Program-made: the position numbers and the translations under genes
Source: a virus
Length of the DNA stretch: 32,986 nucleotides
Direction: 5' to 3' (one strand)
IMG/VR virus record: IMGVR_UViG_3300035701_000165
Coordinates: 1 to 32,986 of that record
The notes under the pieces: generated by a model
Databases searched by the model: none
What the model was told of the DNA's origin: nothing
The model's input: the letters and a program-made list of their open reading frames with translations, nothing else
Shown here: piece by piece, positions 4,191 through 9,025 of the stretch
Numbering within the stretch: position 1 is the stretch's first letter
Layout: each line of letters starts with the position of its first letter

Positions 4191-4191
4191 C

Positions 4192-4219
4192 TTGTTACCT
4201 TTTTGATCCTTGGTAGAAT
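4192..4219 (+). promoter_or_regulatory. Candidate sigma70-type promoter with extended -10
   Basis: TTGTTA (4192-4197) is followed after 16 bases by TAGAAT (4214-4219), with TG one base before the -10 giving an extended -10 (TGGTAGAAT). The stretch is locally AT-rich in an otherwise GC-rich window and sits just after the stop of the 3426 gene. Transcription would begin about 4226, leaving a very short leader before GGAGG (4232-4236). A weak TAAC-TT-GTTA hairpin followed by CCTTTTT overlaps the region and might be a poor terminator for the upstream cassette. Sequence match only. Confidence 0.45.
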
Positions 4220-4241: not shown

Positions 4242-4562
4242 ATGGCAGCGAGAGAGATGCGGTTGACGAGGGAGGAAATTCTGGGGGAGCTCCAACGCAT
4301 CCACCGCCTCTTCGACGCATGGGTGGAGATGGAAAGCAATGGGTCAGGAAGACATTCTGAAGCAGATTTTGGAGGCTTTGAGGCGTCTGGAGCGGGGGCT
4401 CCCCCAGGACGATCCTCAACCCCGATCTGTTTCTTCACGACCGGCGGACCCCCGGGCAACGGAGCAGTTCCCGAAAATCGAGCTGGCGATCAAGGCGGAG
4501 ATCGAAAGGCATACCGAGAAGTGCGCCCTCGCCATGAAGGAAAAAATGGGGGCGCAGATTGA
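4242..4562 (+). CDS. Small ORF with strong ribosome site, overlapped by the next gene
   Basis: ATG 4242 stands five bases after a perfect GGAGG, directly downstream of a candidate promoter. The first ~32 residues (MAAREMRLTREEILGELQR then IHRLFDAWVEME) look like a genuine charged helix. After about base 4340 the frame becomes Gly/Pro-rich with poor codon usage, because it runs out of frame through the clearly coding gene at 4339. Either a short protein with an overprinted tail is made, or the N-terminus belongs to the 4339 gene through a frameshift or assembly error, or the ORF is spurious past its start. Function unknown. Confidence 0.4.
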   Translation: MAAREMRLTREEILGELQRIHRLFDAWVEMESNGSGRHSEADFGGFEASGAGAPPGRSSTPICFFTTGGPPGNGAVPENRAGDQGGDRKAYREVRPRHEGKNGGAD

Positions 4563-4911
4563 CCCCCTGTCTACGCGGGTCAAGACGCTCGAAGAGAAGT
4601 TGAGCGAGGCGAAGAAGGACTTGGGCGGGCGGATCAACGGGGCGCGGGAAGATGCCGCCAAGACGGCCACTGGGACGGTGGTGTCTGTGGATGACAAGAT
4701 CCGGGGCATCATGGAGATCTTGAAGGGGCTTCCGAACGTGCCGGGCCTGGAGGAGATGGTCCGGGATCTGGGGCAGTGGGTGGAGGAGGAGGAGCAACGC
4801 AGGGCCAATGCGGCGGAGCGGTCAAGATTCAGTATCACCACGGTTCTGGCGGCCATCGGGATATTTGCGGCCATAGCCCTCGGGGTGTTGAATCTCGTTA
4901 TCGGAAAGTAG
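4339..4911 (+). CDS. Coiled-coil protein with C-terminal membrane anchor
   Basis: The 190-residue product is not assignable to a characterised protein. Residues ~1-20 are an amphipathic helix, ~20-40 are Pro-rich, and ~45-160 form long charged helices typical of coiled coils (TRVKTLEEKLSEAKKDL). Residues ~166-188 are one hydrophobic span (TTVLAAIGIFAAIALGVLNL) ending in IGK. The layout of helix plus tail anchor recalls XhlA-like phage membrane proteins, but it is over twice their usual length, so that link is weak. ATG 4339 has GGAG ten bases upstream. The next gene starts eight bases after its stop, so it is co-transcribed with the DUF2589 pair and may anchor that group at the membrane (inference). 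Confidence 0.68.
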   Translation: MGQEDILKQILEALRRLERGLPQDDPQPRSVSSRPADPRATEQFPKIELAIKAEIERHTEKCALAMKEKMGAQIDPLSTRVKTLEEKLSEAKKDLGGRINGAREDAAKTATGTVVSVDDKIRGIMEILKGLPNVPGLEEMVRDLGQWVEEEEQRRANAAERSRFSITTVLAAIGIFAAIALGVLNLVIGK

Positions 4912-4918
4912 GTGAAAC

Positions 4919-5545
4919 GTGGCTGGAGTAGACCCCGCTTTTGTCGGCAGCGTTTTCAACGCCCTTCCGTTGGATCGCATGATCACCATCCCCCTGATGG
5001 CGATGGTCCAGGCCCAGGTCCAGGCGAGCAAAGCCTACGTGGACTTCCTCCTGGCCGTCTGCATCAAGGACGGGAAGGCCGTCGCGGTCCAGTTCGACTA
5101 CGACGAGACCCTGACCGACTCCGAGGGGAAGATCACGGGGGCGATGAAGCGGACGATCCGGGTGCCCCTCATGGCTGCGGTGGTTCACCCCTGCATCTGC
5201 ATCGAGGAGGGGACCATCGACTTTGAGCTGACGGTCTCCCAGGCGGAGGAGGAGAAGTCCGCGACGGCTGGAGAGGCGACCCTCGAAGCCACGGTGGGGT
5301 GGGGGCCGTTTAAGGTCAGTGTCCACGGGTCGCTCTCCCACAAGAGCGAGCAGACCCGGAAGACCGACACACGGGCGAAGTACACCATCCACATCACGGC
5401 CAAGCGCCAGCCCGCGCCCGAGGGTCTTCAGCGGATCATCGACCACCTGGTGGATGCAGCGACGAAGCCGGGGACCATGCCCGCGAACGTCGAGCCCCAG
5501 AAACCCGAGACCCTCGTGAACGAGGTTCCTCCTCCGAAGCCGTAG
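4919..5545 (+). CDS. DUF2589-like protein A
   Basis: The 208-residue product begins with the pattern typical of DUF2589 as I know it: LPLDRMITIPLMAMVQAQVQAS then a helix leading to YVDFLL (residues ~16-45). The middle is beta-rich with TIRVPLMAAVVHPCICIEE (~80-98), and a segment ending in APEGLQRIIDHLVDA (~165-179) precedes a Pro-rich tail. No catalytic motif or signal peptide is seen. The family has no established function that I can cite. The start is GTG 4919, supported by AGGTGA just upstream. It is followed after ten bases by a paralogue (5556) sharing the RVPLM/KVPLI strand and the APEG-RLIEQ helix, so the pair arose by duplication and may form a hetero-oligomer. Its place in a phage structural region is unexplained. 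Confidence 0.7.
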   Translation: MAGVDPAFVGSVFNALPLDRMITIPLMAMVQAQVQASKAYVDFLLAVCIKDGKAVAVQFDYDETLTDSEGKITGAMKRTIRVPLMAAVVHPCICIEEGTIDFELTVSQAEEEKSATAGEATLEATVGWGPFKVSVHGSLSHKSEQTRKTDTRAKYTIHITAKRQPAPEGLQRIIDHLVDAATKPGTMPANVEPQKPETLVNEVPPPKP

Positions 5546-5555
5546 AAGGTGATCC

Positions 5556-6080
5556 TTGGGCTGGTTGAAGGAATGGTGGGAGGGGAAGCCGGTCAGCAAG
5601 CACAACCTGACCGACATTACCCGAGGGATGCAACATGCCGCCTCGACCACGACGGCGATGTTGGGCCAGCAATTCATCCTCCTCATCAACCAGTATTTCG
5701 ACAAGGATAAGGACGGAACCCTCCGGGCCAAGATGGTTCAGGTCGAATTGAGCCCGAGCCACTTCGTGAAGGTGCCGCTGATTTCACTCGTCCAGCCCAG
5801 CGCCATCGTTCTCAAGAAACTGCGGATTCGGATGTCGGTTAGGATCGAGGAGGCTGAGATCAAGGACGCCCAGCGGGACATCATGGGCAACTCCGAGGCG
5901 ACCCGCCTCTCGTTCAAGGTGAGCATGTCCCCCAGGACGAGCATCCTTGGTCGTCGTTCGGATGTCACGGACGTTGAGATGGTCTTCGAGGGGACGGACG
6001 CACCCGAAGGAATCATGCGGCTGATCGAGCAGCACACGAATCTGATCGAGCCGTTGAAGAAGGATGGAGGGAGTCAGTGA
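5556..6080 (+). CDS. DUF2589-like protein B, paralogue of the preceding gene
   Basis: The 174-residue product aligns by eye with its neighbour. An N-terminal helix (TRGMQHAASTTTAMLGQQFI, residues ~22-41) leads to FVKVPLISLVQPSAIVLKK (~70-88). Then come beta strands with RIRMSVRIEEAEIKD and a final DAPEGIMRLIEQHTN (~149-163). The matching parts of the upstream paralogue are TIRVPLMAAVVHPCICIEE and APEGLQRIIDHLVD. It lacks the long Pro-rich C-terminus. The TTG start at 5556 follows AAGGTGATCC; TTG starts are used elsewhere in the window (25696). It overlaps the next gene by four bases (GTGA), so it is coupled to the C92-like protein. Function unknown. Confidence 0.68.
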   Translation: MGWLKEWWEGKPVSKHNLTDITRGMQHAASTTTAMLGQQFILLINQYFDKDKDGTLRAKMVQVELSPSHFVKVPLISLVQPSAIVLKKLRIRMSVRIEEAEIKDAQRDIMGNSEATRLSFKVSMSPRTSILGRRSDVTDVEMVFEGTDAPEGIMRLIEQHTNLIEPLKKDGGSQ

Positions 6081-6694
6081 AAATTCGACTCGTGTTCGCC
6101 AGGACGAATTCTATCATCTCCAGGGCGATTTGCTGGTTCAGCCAGCGGAAGAGTGAGCCCGAACGGAGATGCTCCCACGTCATGGTGAAGTTCCAGCCGG
6201 GCGGGGTCTACGAAGGGGATTGGGCCTGCTTCGAGGCCATGGAACGCGGGGTGTGGGCGAGCCCCTACGACGTGGCCCTGGGGAAGCAGACCGTTGTGGC
6301 GGAGTTCGAGGCCATCGTTTCCGACGAGGCGGCCTACAAGACCATGAGGGTTGCCCTCAACCGCTACCTCTCCTGGTACTACGACTTCTACGGGATCGGC
6401 CTGTGGGCCATCTGGATCTTGGCGAAGCGGTGGTTCTGGACGCCCCTCCATTGGCTGGGAGTCACCTTCCGGCCCGGCAAGGCCCACAAGGCGCTGTTCT
6501 GCTCGGGGTTGGCTCTCCAGGTGGTCAAACTCATGGAGCAGATGGATCCCTTCGCGGACCTCGGGATGAAAGACCTGACGGCCCGAACGTCCACTCCGCA
6601 GAATGAGATCGACATCTGCTTTGATCGCCCGCAGGGGTGGAAGAAGATCGAGGCGGAGGCGCGGCCCCATGACGCCCTTTCGGCCAAACCTTGA
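6077..6694 (+). CDS. Permuted NlpC/P60 (YiiX/C92-like) papain-fold protein
   Basis: The 205-residue product shows the order of active-site residues expected of circularly permuted NlpC/P60 proteins: an N-terminal His (H34 in CSHVMVKF), an acidic residue in the following strand (E53 in CFEAMERGV), and a later nucleophile Cys at a helix start (C142 in KALFCSGLALQ). A hydrophobic aromatic stretch at ~98-128 could contact a membrane or lie buried. It could cleave peptide or isopeptide bonds in peptidoglycan, or act on lipid acyl groups as some relatives do; sequence alone does not decide. GTG 6077 is preceded by GGAGGGAG and overlaps the DUF2589-B stop, so it belongs to that group. No signal peptide is obvious. 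Confidence 0.6.
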   Translation: MKIRLVFARTNSIISRAICWFSQRKSEPERRCSHVMVKFQPGGVYEGDWACFEAMERGVWASPYDVALGKQTVVAEFEAIVSDEAAYKTMRVALNRYLSWYYDFYGIGLWAIWILAKRWFWTPLHWLGVTFRPGKAHKALFCSGLALQVVKLMEQMDPFADLGMKDLTARTSTPQNEIDICFDRPQGWKKIEAEARPHDALSAKP

Positions 6695-6744: not shown

Positions 6745-7098
6745 ATGGGAGCTTCCGAAGGCACCTACCAGCCGGAACGCGGCTTCATGAGCGGGGCGGG
6801 GGATTTCAGCCTTGTGGCGGGGGCGCGGTATCACCCCTTCCGACTCGCCACGATCCTGTGGGAGCGCAAGAATGTCACCCCGGTAGACATCTTCGTCGAG
6901 GTGCTCGACGGCGACAAGGTCTACGGGGTCGACCAGGTGCTCGGCTGCACCTGCAAGCTCTACGCATGGCCGAATTCTGCGAGTCCATTCCACATCTACC
7001 TCGTTCCGGGCATGCAGGTCAGGTTCCGAGTGACCGGAGCCGTGGCCGGAGAGGTGCAATCCGCTGTCATTGTGTGGGCAGAGTTGGGGGCGGTGTAG
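6745..7098 (+). CDS. Small beta-rich hypothetical protein upstream of portal
   Basis: The 117-residue product is unrecognised. It is rich in alternating hydrophobic strands (SLVAGARYHPFRLATILW, HIYLVPGMQVRFRVTGAV, SAVIVWAELGAV), suggesting a beta-sandwich. Three Cys-poor strands flank a CTCKLYAWP segment around residue 71. I chose ATG 6745 because GGGGAG lies six bases upstream; the frame also has a TTG at 6724. It ends one base before the portal start. Its place just before the portal would fit a small capsid decoration or accessory protein, but nothing in the sequence proves that. Confidence 0.6.
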   Translation: MGASEGTYQPERGFMSGAGDFSLVAGARYHPFRLATILWERKNVTPVDIFVEVLDGDKVYGVDQVLGCTCKLYAWPNSASPFHIYLVPGMQVRFRVTGAVAGEVQSAVIVWAELGAV

Positions 7099-7099
7099 T

Positions 7100-9025
7100 A
7101 TGGCGGAAGAATTCATGGAAGTGGCGGGTGAAGCCCTTCTCAAGAAGAGCATTGGGAAGGAAGACATGGACACCCTTCTCAAGGTCATCTTCGTCGGAAG
7201 AGACAGTATCGAGGCCCAGGGAAAAAAGAAGAAGGAGGAGGACGAAGGGCCCAGCCAATTGAAGTCGGGGCAACTTGACGACTTCGAGAGATTGGCTGCA
7301 GGGGAATTCGTTCCTCCCACATTCAATCCGGTCATCTGGGCTCAGGCATGGCGGCAGAGCACTCGTCTTTCCCGGTGCATCCGAACCTACGCCAGGAACA
7401 CGGTCGGTTTAGGATGGCACATTGAGCCCATTCATCCAGTGACTCCCGAGACTCCGGATGAGGAAAAGAAAACCATCCAGGAGCAGACCGAGGTCCTTCG
7501 TGAGTTTTTCTCCTATCCCAACGAACGTCTCCCCATGACCGAGCTCATGTACCTGGAGAAGGTGGATGAGGAGGCGATGGGCACGGGGTACATCGAGATC
7601 GTGAGGAACAACTCGCAGAACATTGCAAGGATGTACCACGCTCCGGCGACGACGATTCGTCGCAGGATCATGACCGAGGGGAACGAAAAGACGGTCTACG
7701 GGTACATCCAGATTCGCGGGGCGAGGAAGCGGTACTTCAAGGAATTCGGGGACAATCGCGTGATGGATGCGAAGACGGGAAAGTGGTTCAGGGGCAAGGA
7801 AGTCCTCCCCGCATCCGACCGCGCCACAGAGATCCTTCAGTTCGCCATCTACGACCCCATCAGCTCCTTCTACGGAGCGCCCCGGTACGTCTCCGCCGCG
7901 ACGGCCATCGCGGGAAACCGGCAGGCGGCCATCCGGAATGTCGCCTTCTTCGAGAACGACGCGGTTCCGAGAATGGCTCTCCTGATTTCTGGAGGGAAGA
8001 TCACGCCGGACTCGATGCAGCAGATTGAGGATTTCGTGCGGGGGAAGGGAAGGGGGACAGACCAGGCTCACCGCGTGATGATCGTCCAGGTGGAACCAGC
8101 GAAGATCGGGTTCCAGCAGCAGAACAGAACGATGGTTGAACTGAAGCCCCTGACCGTGGGGGTGACCGAGGACCAGAGCTTCGGAGCCTACCGGAAGGAC
8201 AACGACGAGGAAATCCGGGAAGCCTTTGGGTTGGCGCAAATCTTCTTTCAGGCGGAGGGAGCCAACCGAGCCAACGCCCAGGTTGCTCGTGAGATCACCA
8301 ATGAGCAGGAGCTGGAACCCGACCGTCTGATGAAGGAGTACATCATCAATCAGACGATCGTGACCGACCTTCTCATCTCCAAAATGAAGCCGGATTGGAG
8401 AGACGACGAAGAGGACGATTTATCGCAGATTGAGGAGATGCGGAAGCTCATCCGCGTTCGGTTCCGGTTTGCTCGATTGACCTTGACGGATCCGCTCGAC
8501 TCGGCTCGGATGGATCAGATTTACGCGTCCCTCGGTGCTATGACTCCGAACGAGTTGAGAGAGAGCCTGGGCAAGCCCCCGTATCCGAAGGATTATTTCT
8601 TCGCGGACAAGCCCATTTCCATTGCTCTTGCGGAGCTCACGGCGGGGCTCGCTCTGGCGATCGCCCAGAAGGACGAGGAAAAGTATCCGACTCCTCCGGC
8701 ACCTCCTGGGGGTCCAGGTGGGATGCCTCTTCCCGATGGGATCGAGCCTGCCCCAGAAATTCCCGTTCCGGAGGAGCCGGAAGAGGAGCCCGAGGCGGAG
8801 GCGGAGGGTAAAGGGAAGGGGGGAGAAAATTCTCCCAAAAGAAAGTTAGGTATTGACGCGCAATCTCCTCGGCGGGTATCATCGCAGAAAAGGTCGGATG
8901 GTAAGGAAAAGGCGTTGAGTATCGTTCAGGAGTTGCTGCTTGACGCTCGACGCCTTGCCTACAACGGGATGATGTTCGCGGGGGGGAGCGGAGGAAGAAA
9001 TGGAGAGCACGATGCCTCTCGGTAA
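7100..9025 (+). CDS. Phage portal protein (PBSX/SPP1-like type)
   Basis: Forms the ring at the capsid vertex through which DNA enters and leaves and to which the connector binds. The product is 641 residues from ATG 7100, which follows the previous stop by one base. Motifs characteristic of the family are RLSRCIRTYARNTVGLGW (residues ~84-101), the KVDEEAMGTGYIEIVRN helix-strand (~154-170), YDPISSFYGAPRYVSA (~253-268) and AFGLAQIFFQ (~374-383). Residues ~525-590 are Pro/Glu-rich and not conserved in the family, followed by a basic tail, making the protein longer than the usual 450-550 residues. The last 26 bases overlap the protease/scaffold gene. Terminase would normally lie upstream but is replaced here by the DUF2589 block. 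Confidence 0.88.
   Translation: MAEEFMEVAGEALLKKSIGKEDMDTLLKVIFVGRDSIEAQGKKKKEEDEGPSQLKSGQLDDFERLAAGEFVPPTFNPVIWAQAWRQSTRLSRCIRTYARNTVGLGWHIEPIHPVTPETPDEEKKTIQEQTEVLREFFSYPNERLPMTELMYLEKVDEEAMGTGYIEIVRNNSQNIARMYHAPATTIRRRIMTEGNEKTVYGYIQIRGARKRYFKEFGDNRVMDAKTGKWFRGKEVLPASDRATEILQFAIYDPISSFYGAPRYVSAATAIAGNRQAAIRNVAFFENDAVPRMALLISGGKITPDSMQQIEDFVRGKGRGTDQAHRVMIVQVEPAKIGFQQQNRTMVELKPLTVGVTEDQSFGAYRKDNDEEIREAFGLAQIFFQAEGANRANAQVAREITNEQELEPDRLMKEYIINQTIVTDLLISKMKPDWRDDEEDDLSQIEEMRKLIRVRFRFARLTLTDPLDSARMDQIYASLGAMTPNELRESLGKPPYPKDYFFADKPISIALAELTAGLALAIAQKDEEKYPTPPAPPGGPGGMPLPDGIEPAPEIPVPEEPEEEPEAEAEGKGKGGENSPKRKLGIDAQSPRRVSSQKRSDGKEKALSIVQELLLDARRLAYNGMMFAGGSGGRNGEHDASR

Follow-up and report, generated by a model that had tools for sequence, protein, structure and literature searches.

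The conserved core of the phage block analyzed here is a pair of adjacent DUF2589 genes, D1 and D2. These are the real two-gene unit, and the candidate hydrolase and coiled-coil genes on either side of them are optional attachments of a single phage group. The pair is also found in bacterial genomes, and in Pseudomonadota the sequence comparisons make a strong, but not universal, link between it and genes for peptidoglycan hydrolases. Judging from these neighbours, a function of the pair at the cell envelope appears likely.

The window, meaning the whole stretch of DNA that was analyzed, is a 32,986-base IMG/VR virus record, and the feature under study lies at 4,242–6,694. The window has the appearance of a late region from a contractile-tailed phage. 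Genes for portal, capsid (PHROG 1623), sheath, tube and baseplate proteins are found 3′ of the block, in agreement with the virion cluster described in a preliminary description of this DNA, and a portion of the capsid protein shares ∼37% identity with capsids of Streptomyces, Vibrio and Pseudomonas phages. All features of the block are on the plus strand. A promoter-like site (4191–4219) and a short open reading frame (4242–4562) are followed by genes for a 190 aa coiled-coil protein (4339–4911), D1 (4919–5545; 208 aa, GTG start), D2 (5556–6080; 174 aa, TTG start) and a candidate C92/YiiX-like permuted NlpC/P60 cysteine hydrolase of 205 aa (6077–6694). D1 and D2 match PF11655 (DUF2589) with E values of 2.5e-25 (90.1 bits) and 1.3e-15 (58.5 bits), respectively. 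Both scores exceed the curated 23-bit cut-off and place the two proteins in the family. No transmembrane segment was found in either protein.

Comparison with other phages separates the pair from its neighbours. In the nearest phages (L003, L004 and L008) the order is coiled-coil gene, D1, D2, C92-like gene, g6724 and portal. In the sister phages L015 and L016 the C92-like gene is missing between D2 and the next gene, with the pair, the coiled-coil gene and the rest present, and phages of other groups (L017, L018, L019, L082, L083 and L084) carry the pair only. Because the C92-like gene is absent from the sister phages and only the pair remains in the other groups, the pair is the unit. The preliminary description had treated all four genes as one functional unit expected to stay together in related phages. 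D1 and D2 do remain adjacent, but the C92-like and coiled-coil genes come and go, and a conserved four-gene unit is ruled out by the sister phages, which keep the pair and the coiled-coil gene without the enzyme. Among the loci compared, the coiled-coil gene is confined to this phage group, and no hydrolase touches the pair in the pair-bearing phages of other groups. Searches of phage and plasmid collections returned one unannotated fragment and four bacterial replicons with D1, and no match with the C92-like protein.

D1 is the slower-evolving, strongly conserved member of the pair, and its identity to D1s of other phage groups ranges from 58% down to 29%. On the tree, D1s and D2s form two separate groups divided by one change, with phage and bacterial sequences interleaved, which is the pattern of a single ancient event. 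A recent duplication is ruled out by this topology, so that the pair described earlier as duplicated consists of firm PF11655 members that are duplicates in a deep sense only. The phage pair forms its own group within DUF2589 (98% SH-aLRT for D1). Distances among D1s and among D2s are correlated (0.79 over 34 dereplicated loci; 0 of 2000 permutations), and the correlation, as a property of the sequences, shows joint inheritance of the two genes, not contact between their products.

In bacteria, a genome scan with D1 recovered 47 loci at 55–67% identity, mostly in Burkholderia, Ralstonia, Pseudomonas and enterobacteria. In an evenly sampled set of genomes, DUF2589 was present in 9 of 398 Pseudomonadota and in 11 of 289 members of the Lentisphaeria/Verrucomicrobiota-type phylum. 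As an adjacent pair, the phage genes follow the usual occurrence of PF11655 among the loci compared. With few exceptions, complete loci, whether from phages or Pseudomonadota, have D1 followed by D2, adjacent and on one strand. The layout differs in L102, in which the order is reversed, and in L103, L105 and L147, which have inserted small genes. The phage D2 differs from many bacterial D2s in lacking their long proline-rich N-terminal extension. Regulators of LuxR, Mor or LytTR type adjoin many bacterial pairs.

Of 28 dereplicated bacterial loci, 17 have a peptidoglycan hydrolase gene no more than 1 kb from the pair. In the even sample, such a neighbour occurs in 7 of the 9 Pseudomonadota genomes that carry DUF2589. 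The gene directly after D2 in Ochrobactrum and in the majority of Burkholderiales and Enterobacterales encodes a GH24 phage-type lysozyme (PF00959, 5e-46; PHROG endolysin, 5e-61) that starts from about −20 to +23 bp relative to the D2 stop, the same place as the C92-like gene in the phage. Other loci have GH19 (L021, L024, L102 and L103; E values of 1.9e-10 and 9.1e-9), a pesticin-type lysozyme (L031, L032 and L108; 6.7e-46) or Amidase_3 (L105; 4.3e-10). The link is not universal, since L034 has a class 3 lipase in place of a hydrolase and four Verrucomicrobiota loci combine DUF2589 with a LytTR-type regulator and no hydrolase. The twelve genomes tested carry 0 to 4 GH24 copies each, and the only copy in genome G008 adjoins the pair; given this rarity, a chance neighbourhood is most unlikely. 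The earlier suggestion that the block acts at a membrane or cell wall was thus a good guess, since bacterial relatives of the pair adjoin peptidoglycan hydrolases.

None of the hydrolases inspected has an N-terminal leader, so that a route out of the cytoplasm, or lysis, is needed. We tentatively propose, at somewhat below an even chance, that the pair assists the action of leaderless envelope hydrolases and is used by the phage late in infection. The proposal starts from the conservation of the pair, its recurrent hydrolase neighbours and the missing leaders in the enzymes inspected; from these we infer physical assembly, membrane binding, help with export, timing and the substrate of the enzyme. 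D1 and D2 would be a heteropair, an ancient module common to bacteria and several unrelated phages, whose members would form a joint assembly in the cytoplasm and attach to the inner membrane. There the pair would let a leaderless envelope-degrading enzyme from the adjoining gene reach or act on the envelope. The partner in bacteria would usually be a phage-type peptidoglycan hydrolase, and in the phage the permuted NlpC/P60 (C92/YiiX-like) cysteine enzyme, with membrane lipids or lipid amides as its substrate by family precedent. The phage would deploy the set late in infection, aiding breakdown of the host cell. If the pair does carry or unleash leaderless hydrolases, bacteria and phages would share a non-holin route through the envelope. 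In its widest form, in which the heteropair is an unrecognized holin-independent device that brings many unrelated cytoplasmic envelope hydrolases to their target and was adopted by phages for lysis or entry together with a lipid-directed cysteine enzyme, the idea is unlikely. That GH24, GH19, pesticin-type and amidase enzymes recur beside the pair is the first concrete testable lead found for DUF2589.

The strongest evidence against the proposal is that the sister phages lack the enzyme and that other phages and Verrucomicrobiota lack a hydrolase beside the pair; neighbourhood is not function. The same loci bear on a second explanation, somewhat unlikely in our estimate, in which the pair forms a cargo module independent of the genes around it and has a role of its own inside the host cell, in stress, envelope upkeep or phage exclusion; the enzyme and coiled-coil genes would then be neighbours with no relation to it beyond a common promoter. 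Such a module would account for the variable C92-like and coiled-coil genes around a constant pair and for the Verrucomicrobiota loci without a hydrolase. It would also suit the Ralstonia operon, which is outside any prophage, between prkA/yeaH/spoVR-type genes and an RNase H gene, with a divergent LuxR-type regulator. It does not explain why different peptidoglycan hydrolases have joined the pair repeatedly and independently at one spot, and the models of defence systems that were searched match neither the pair nor the enzyme.

The interchangeability of GH24, GH19, amidase, pesticin-type and lipase-type partners could instead mean that the bacterial operons are antagonism cassettes, with the hydrolase as antibacterial effector, an exported third protein as periplasmic immunity factor and the pair as the means of delivery, the part that the phage would have taken. 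The small protein c3, encoded after GH24, has an N-terminal leader and is exported, and a Tle1-type phospholipase gene follows the amidase gene in L105, both of which fit this reading. We consider it very unlikely, as no secretion-system genes were noticed beside the pairs and in Verrucomicrobiota no effector accompanies the pair.

The position of the block raises a further alternative. In this phage group it lies directly before the portal, capsid and tail genes, and in L017 and L018 long proteins resembling tail fibres come after the pair, as might be expected if the pair, with or without the enzyme, consisted of minor virion or ejected proteins that aid passage of the genome across the envelope at entry. 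Bacterial chromosomes, however, carry the same pair without adjoining virion genes, and no structural PHROG or Pfam family matched; this role is quite unlikely. The location of the block beside the portal, not in a recognized lysis cassette, also counts against our preferred reading of a pair that assists envelope hydrolases, as do the absence of a transmembrane segment in D1 and D2, the structure model, in which no pore or membrane-binding fold is recognizable, and the weak similarity of the enzyme to C92 proteins.

The start of the candidate enzyme gene overlaps the D2 stop by four bases (GTGA, 6077–6080), as originally described. Five homologues, one of them only 51% identical, all retain H34, E53 and C142, which have the permuted order, His before Cys; the His/Cys pair thus holds up at this distance. 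The protein resembles PF05708 C92/YiiX-like enzymes in the succession of His (SH34), FEA53, YDF and then Cys (FCS142), in its SxxS-AI start and in its comparable length. It differs from them by a tryptophan-rich insert of ∼35 residues between YDF and the Cys motif, and by having no Pfam match. No Pfam or PHROG family fits, and PF05708 was not matched up to an E value of 1 with the window protein or 10 with the homologue L078 and in the records. An hhalign comparison with the C92 proteins gathered here gave an E value of 4.4e-4 and a probability of 34% over 106 columns, pairing SH, FEA and YDF in the expected order with the Cys motif outside the alignment and its region unaligned. Of the C92-like protease described earlier, the permuted NlpC/P60 layout is therefore retained, and the family assignment, which falls below family thresholds, becomes plausible, with the profile comparison suggestive. 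Tox-Act1, a permuted NlpC/P60 enzyme, is a phospholipase (PMC12994826), and C92 enzymes have been described as lipid amidases (PMC10318531). Since permuted NlpC/P60 enzymes act on lipids, the window protein, if it is an enzyme, would by analogy be more likely to attack membrane lipids than wall peptides.

Hydrolase cassettes outside prophages have a precedent in type 10 secretion systems (T10SS; PMC10847048). The bacterial loci share with these, and with holin/endolysin/spanin cassettes, a leaderless peptidoglycan hydrolase that is encoded outside prophages together with accessory genes and controlled by a local regulator; unlike them, they have DUF2589 proteins, which lack a transmembrane segment. 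No recognized endolysin was found in the window block with Pfam or PHROG, in contrast to the bacterial relatives, which have endolysins. XepA and YomS, from lytic cassettes of Bacillus subtilis prophages, are likewise soluble proteins without a transmembrane segment, and action on membranes has been proposed for them (PMC6834076). XepA is one protein of two domains, whereas the DUF2589 proteins are a heteropair and the D2 model has no match in the PDB. We cite T10SS and XepA-type systems as precedents, without assigning the pair to either.

An AlphaFold2 model of D2 from 67 sequences (mean pLDDT 75.9, pTM 0.56) has a long helix, a sheet with a long hairpin and a C-terminal helix, and no recognizable pore or membrane-binding fold. 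No PDB chain reached a Z score of at least 2, and the best Foldseek E value was 0.1, in searches that can miss weak matches; the model did match one viral protein, apparently a family member. This is weak evidence for a new fold, as modelling may perform poorly on one chain taken out of an assembly. The D1 model, from 36 sequences, was useless (pLDDT 48.6), and sequence searches of the PDB gave empty or chance matches. In the literature searched, DUF2589 is named in one paper, without a function, and no system or function is described for the pair, consistent with the initial failure to match the block to a known system.

In the coiled-coil protein, a hydrophobic segment occurs once at the C-terminus (Kyte-Doolittle 19-residue mean of 2.58 from residue 170) and not at the N-terminus, which upholds its description as tail-anchored. 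Its gene begins at 4339, not with the reading frame at 4242, which is in a different frame and is ruled out as the start of the coiled-coil gene. Its matches are weak and limited to coiled-coil stretches. Pfam and PHROG gave no holin family, and XhlA was not among the Pfam matches up to an E value of 1. A match to the Zorya ZorA model (E value 0.0012) was limited to the coiled-coil tail of the model and did not include a MotA/ExbB/TolQ-type membrane domain. Where the 4242–4562 frame overlaps the coiled-coil gene, changes among the relatives compared fall at third positions of the coiled-coil gene, so that only the coiled-coil frame is constrained there. The 4242–4562 frame may represent a small leader gene or else belong to a frameshift arrangement. 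Six phages conserve its first ∼33 codons, whose product is similar to the beginning of the coiled-coil protein, with two similar amphipathic helices, as if derived from an in-place repeat or a frameshift.

Upstream of the block, a sigma-70-like site (TTGTTA-16-TAGAAT, 4192–4219; CTTGTTA-16-TAGAAT from 4191) had been proposed as a promoter. A scan of the region found 3 such sites against 1.1 expected, a count that is no proof by itself. One match to the pattern CTTGTT-N14-19-TAGWAT, which was derived from the site itself, is present in the window against 0.01 expected. The pattern recurs at the equivalent position in L005–L008 and L015, with diverged spacers of other lengths; the hexamers are kept in L008 and L015, and the site is weaker in L004 and L016. 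This recurrence in relatives with a drifting spacer is better evidence for a promoter-like site than the scan count.

Several minor observations concern the relatives. A 122-kb relative (L151–L157) encodes a caspase-domain protein (PF00656), a class II ribonucleotide reductase, PolA, RecA, DnaB and a DUF2201 VWA protein. No known lysis enzyme is among the 25 Pfam families that match it best, a point in favour of the envelope-hydrolase proposal, although gene selection or an incomplete contig may explain it. In L004 (8988–12071, compared with 7070–9025 of the window), ∼1 kb of extra sequence splits the portal gene, in frame or as an insert, and portal residues from 406 onward resume beyond it, possibly reflecting an intein or insertion. 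Enterobacterial clusters have two additional small membrane proteins, which also favour that proposal; in L028 (10432–11857) and L079 (4145–5031) these and a putative papain-like protein, C39-type by eye, follow the lysozyme. The Verrucomicrobiota loci L147 (5359–8526) and L148 encode a LytTR-type regulator, DUF2589, a diverged D2-like protein, DUF2589 and a zinc-ribbon protein, and operons of this type recur in several genomes of one group. Finally, c48, a conserved protein of ∼90 residues with no family match, lies near the pair in L021, L022, L023 and L102–L105, where it accompanies a second branch of the DUF2589 family.
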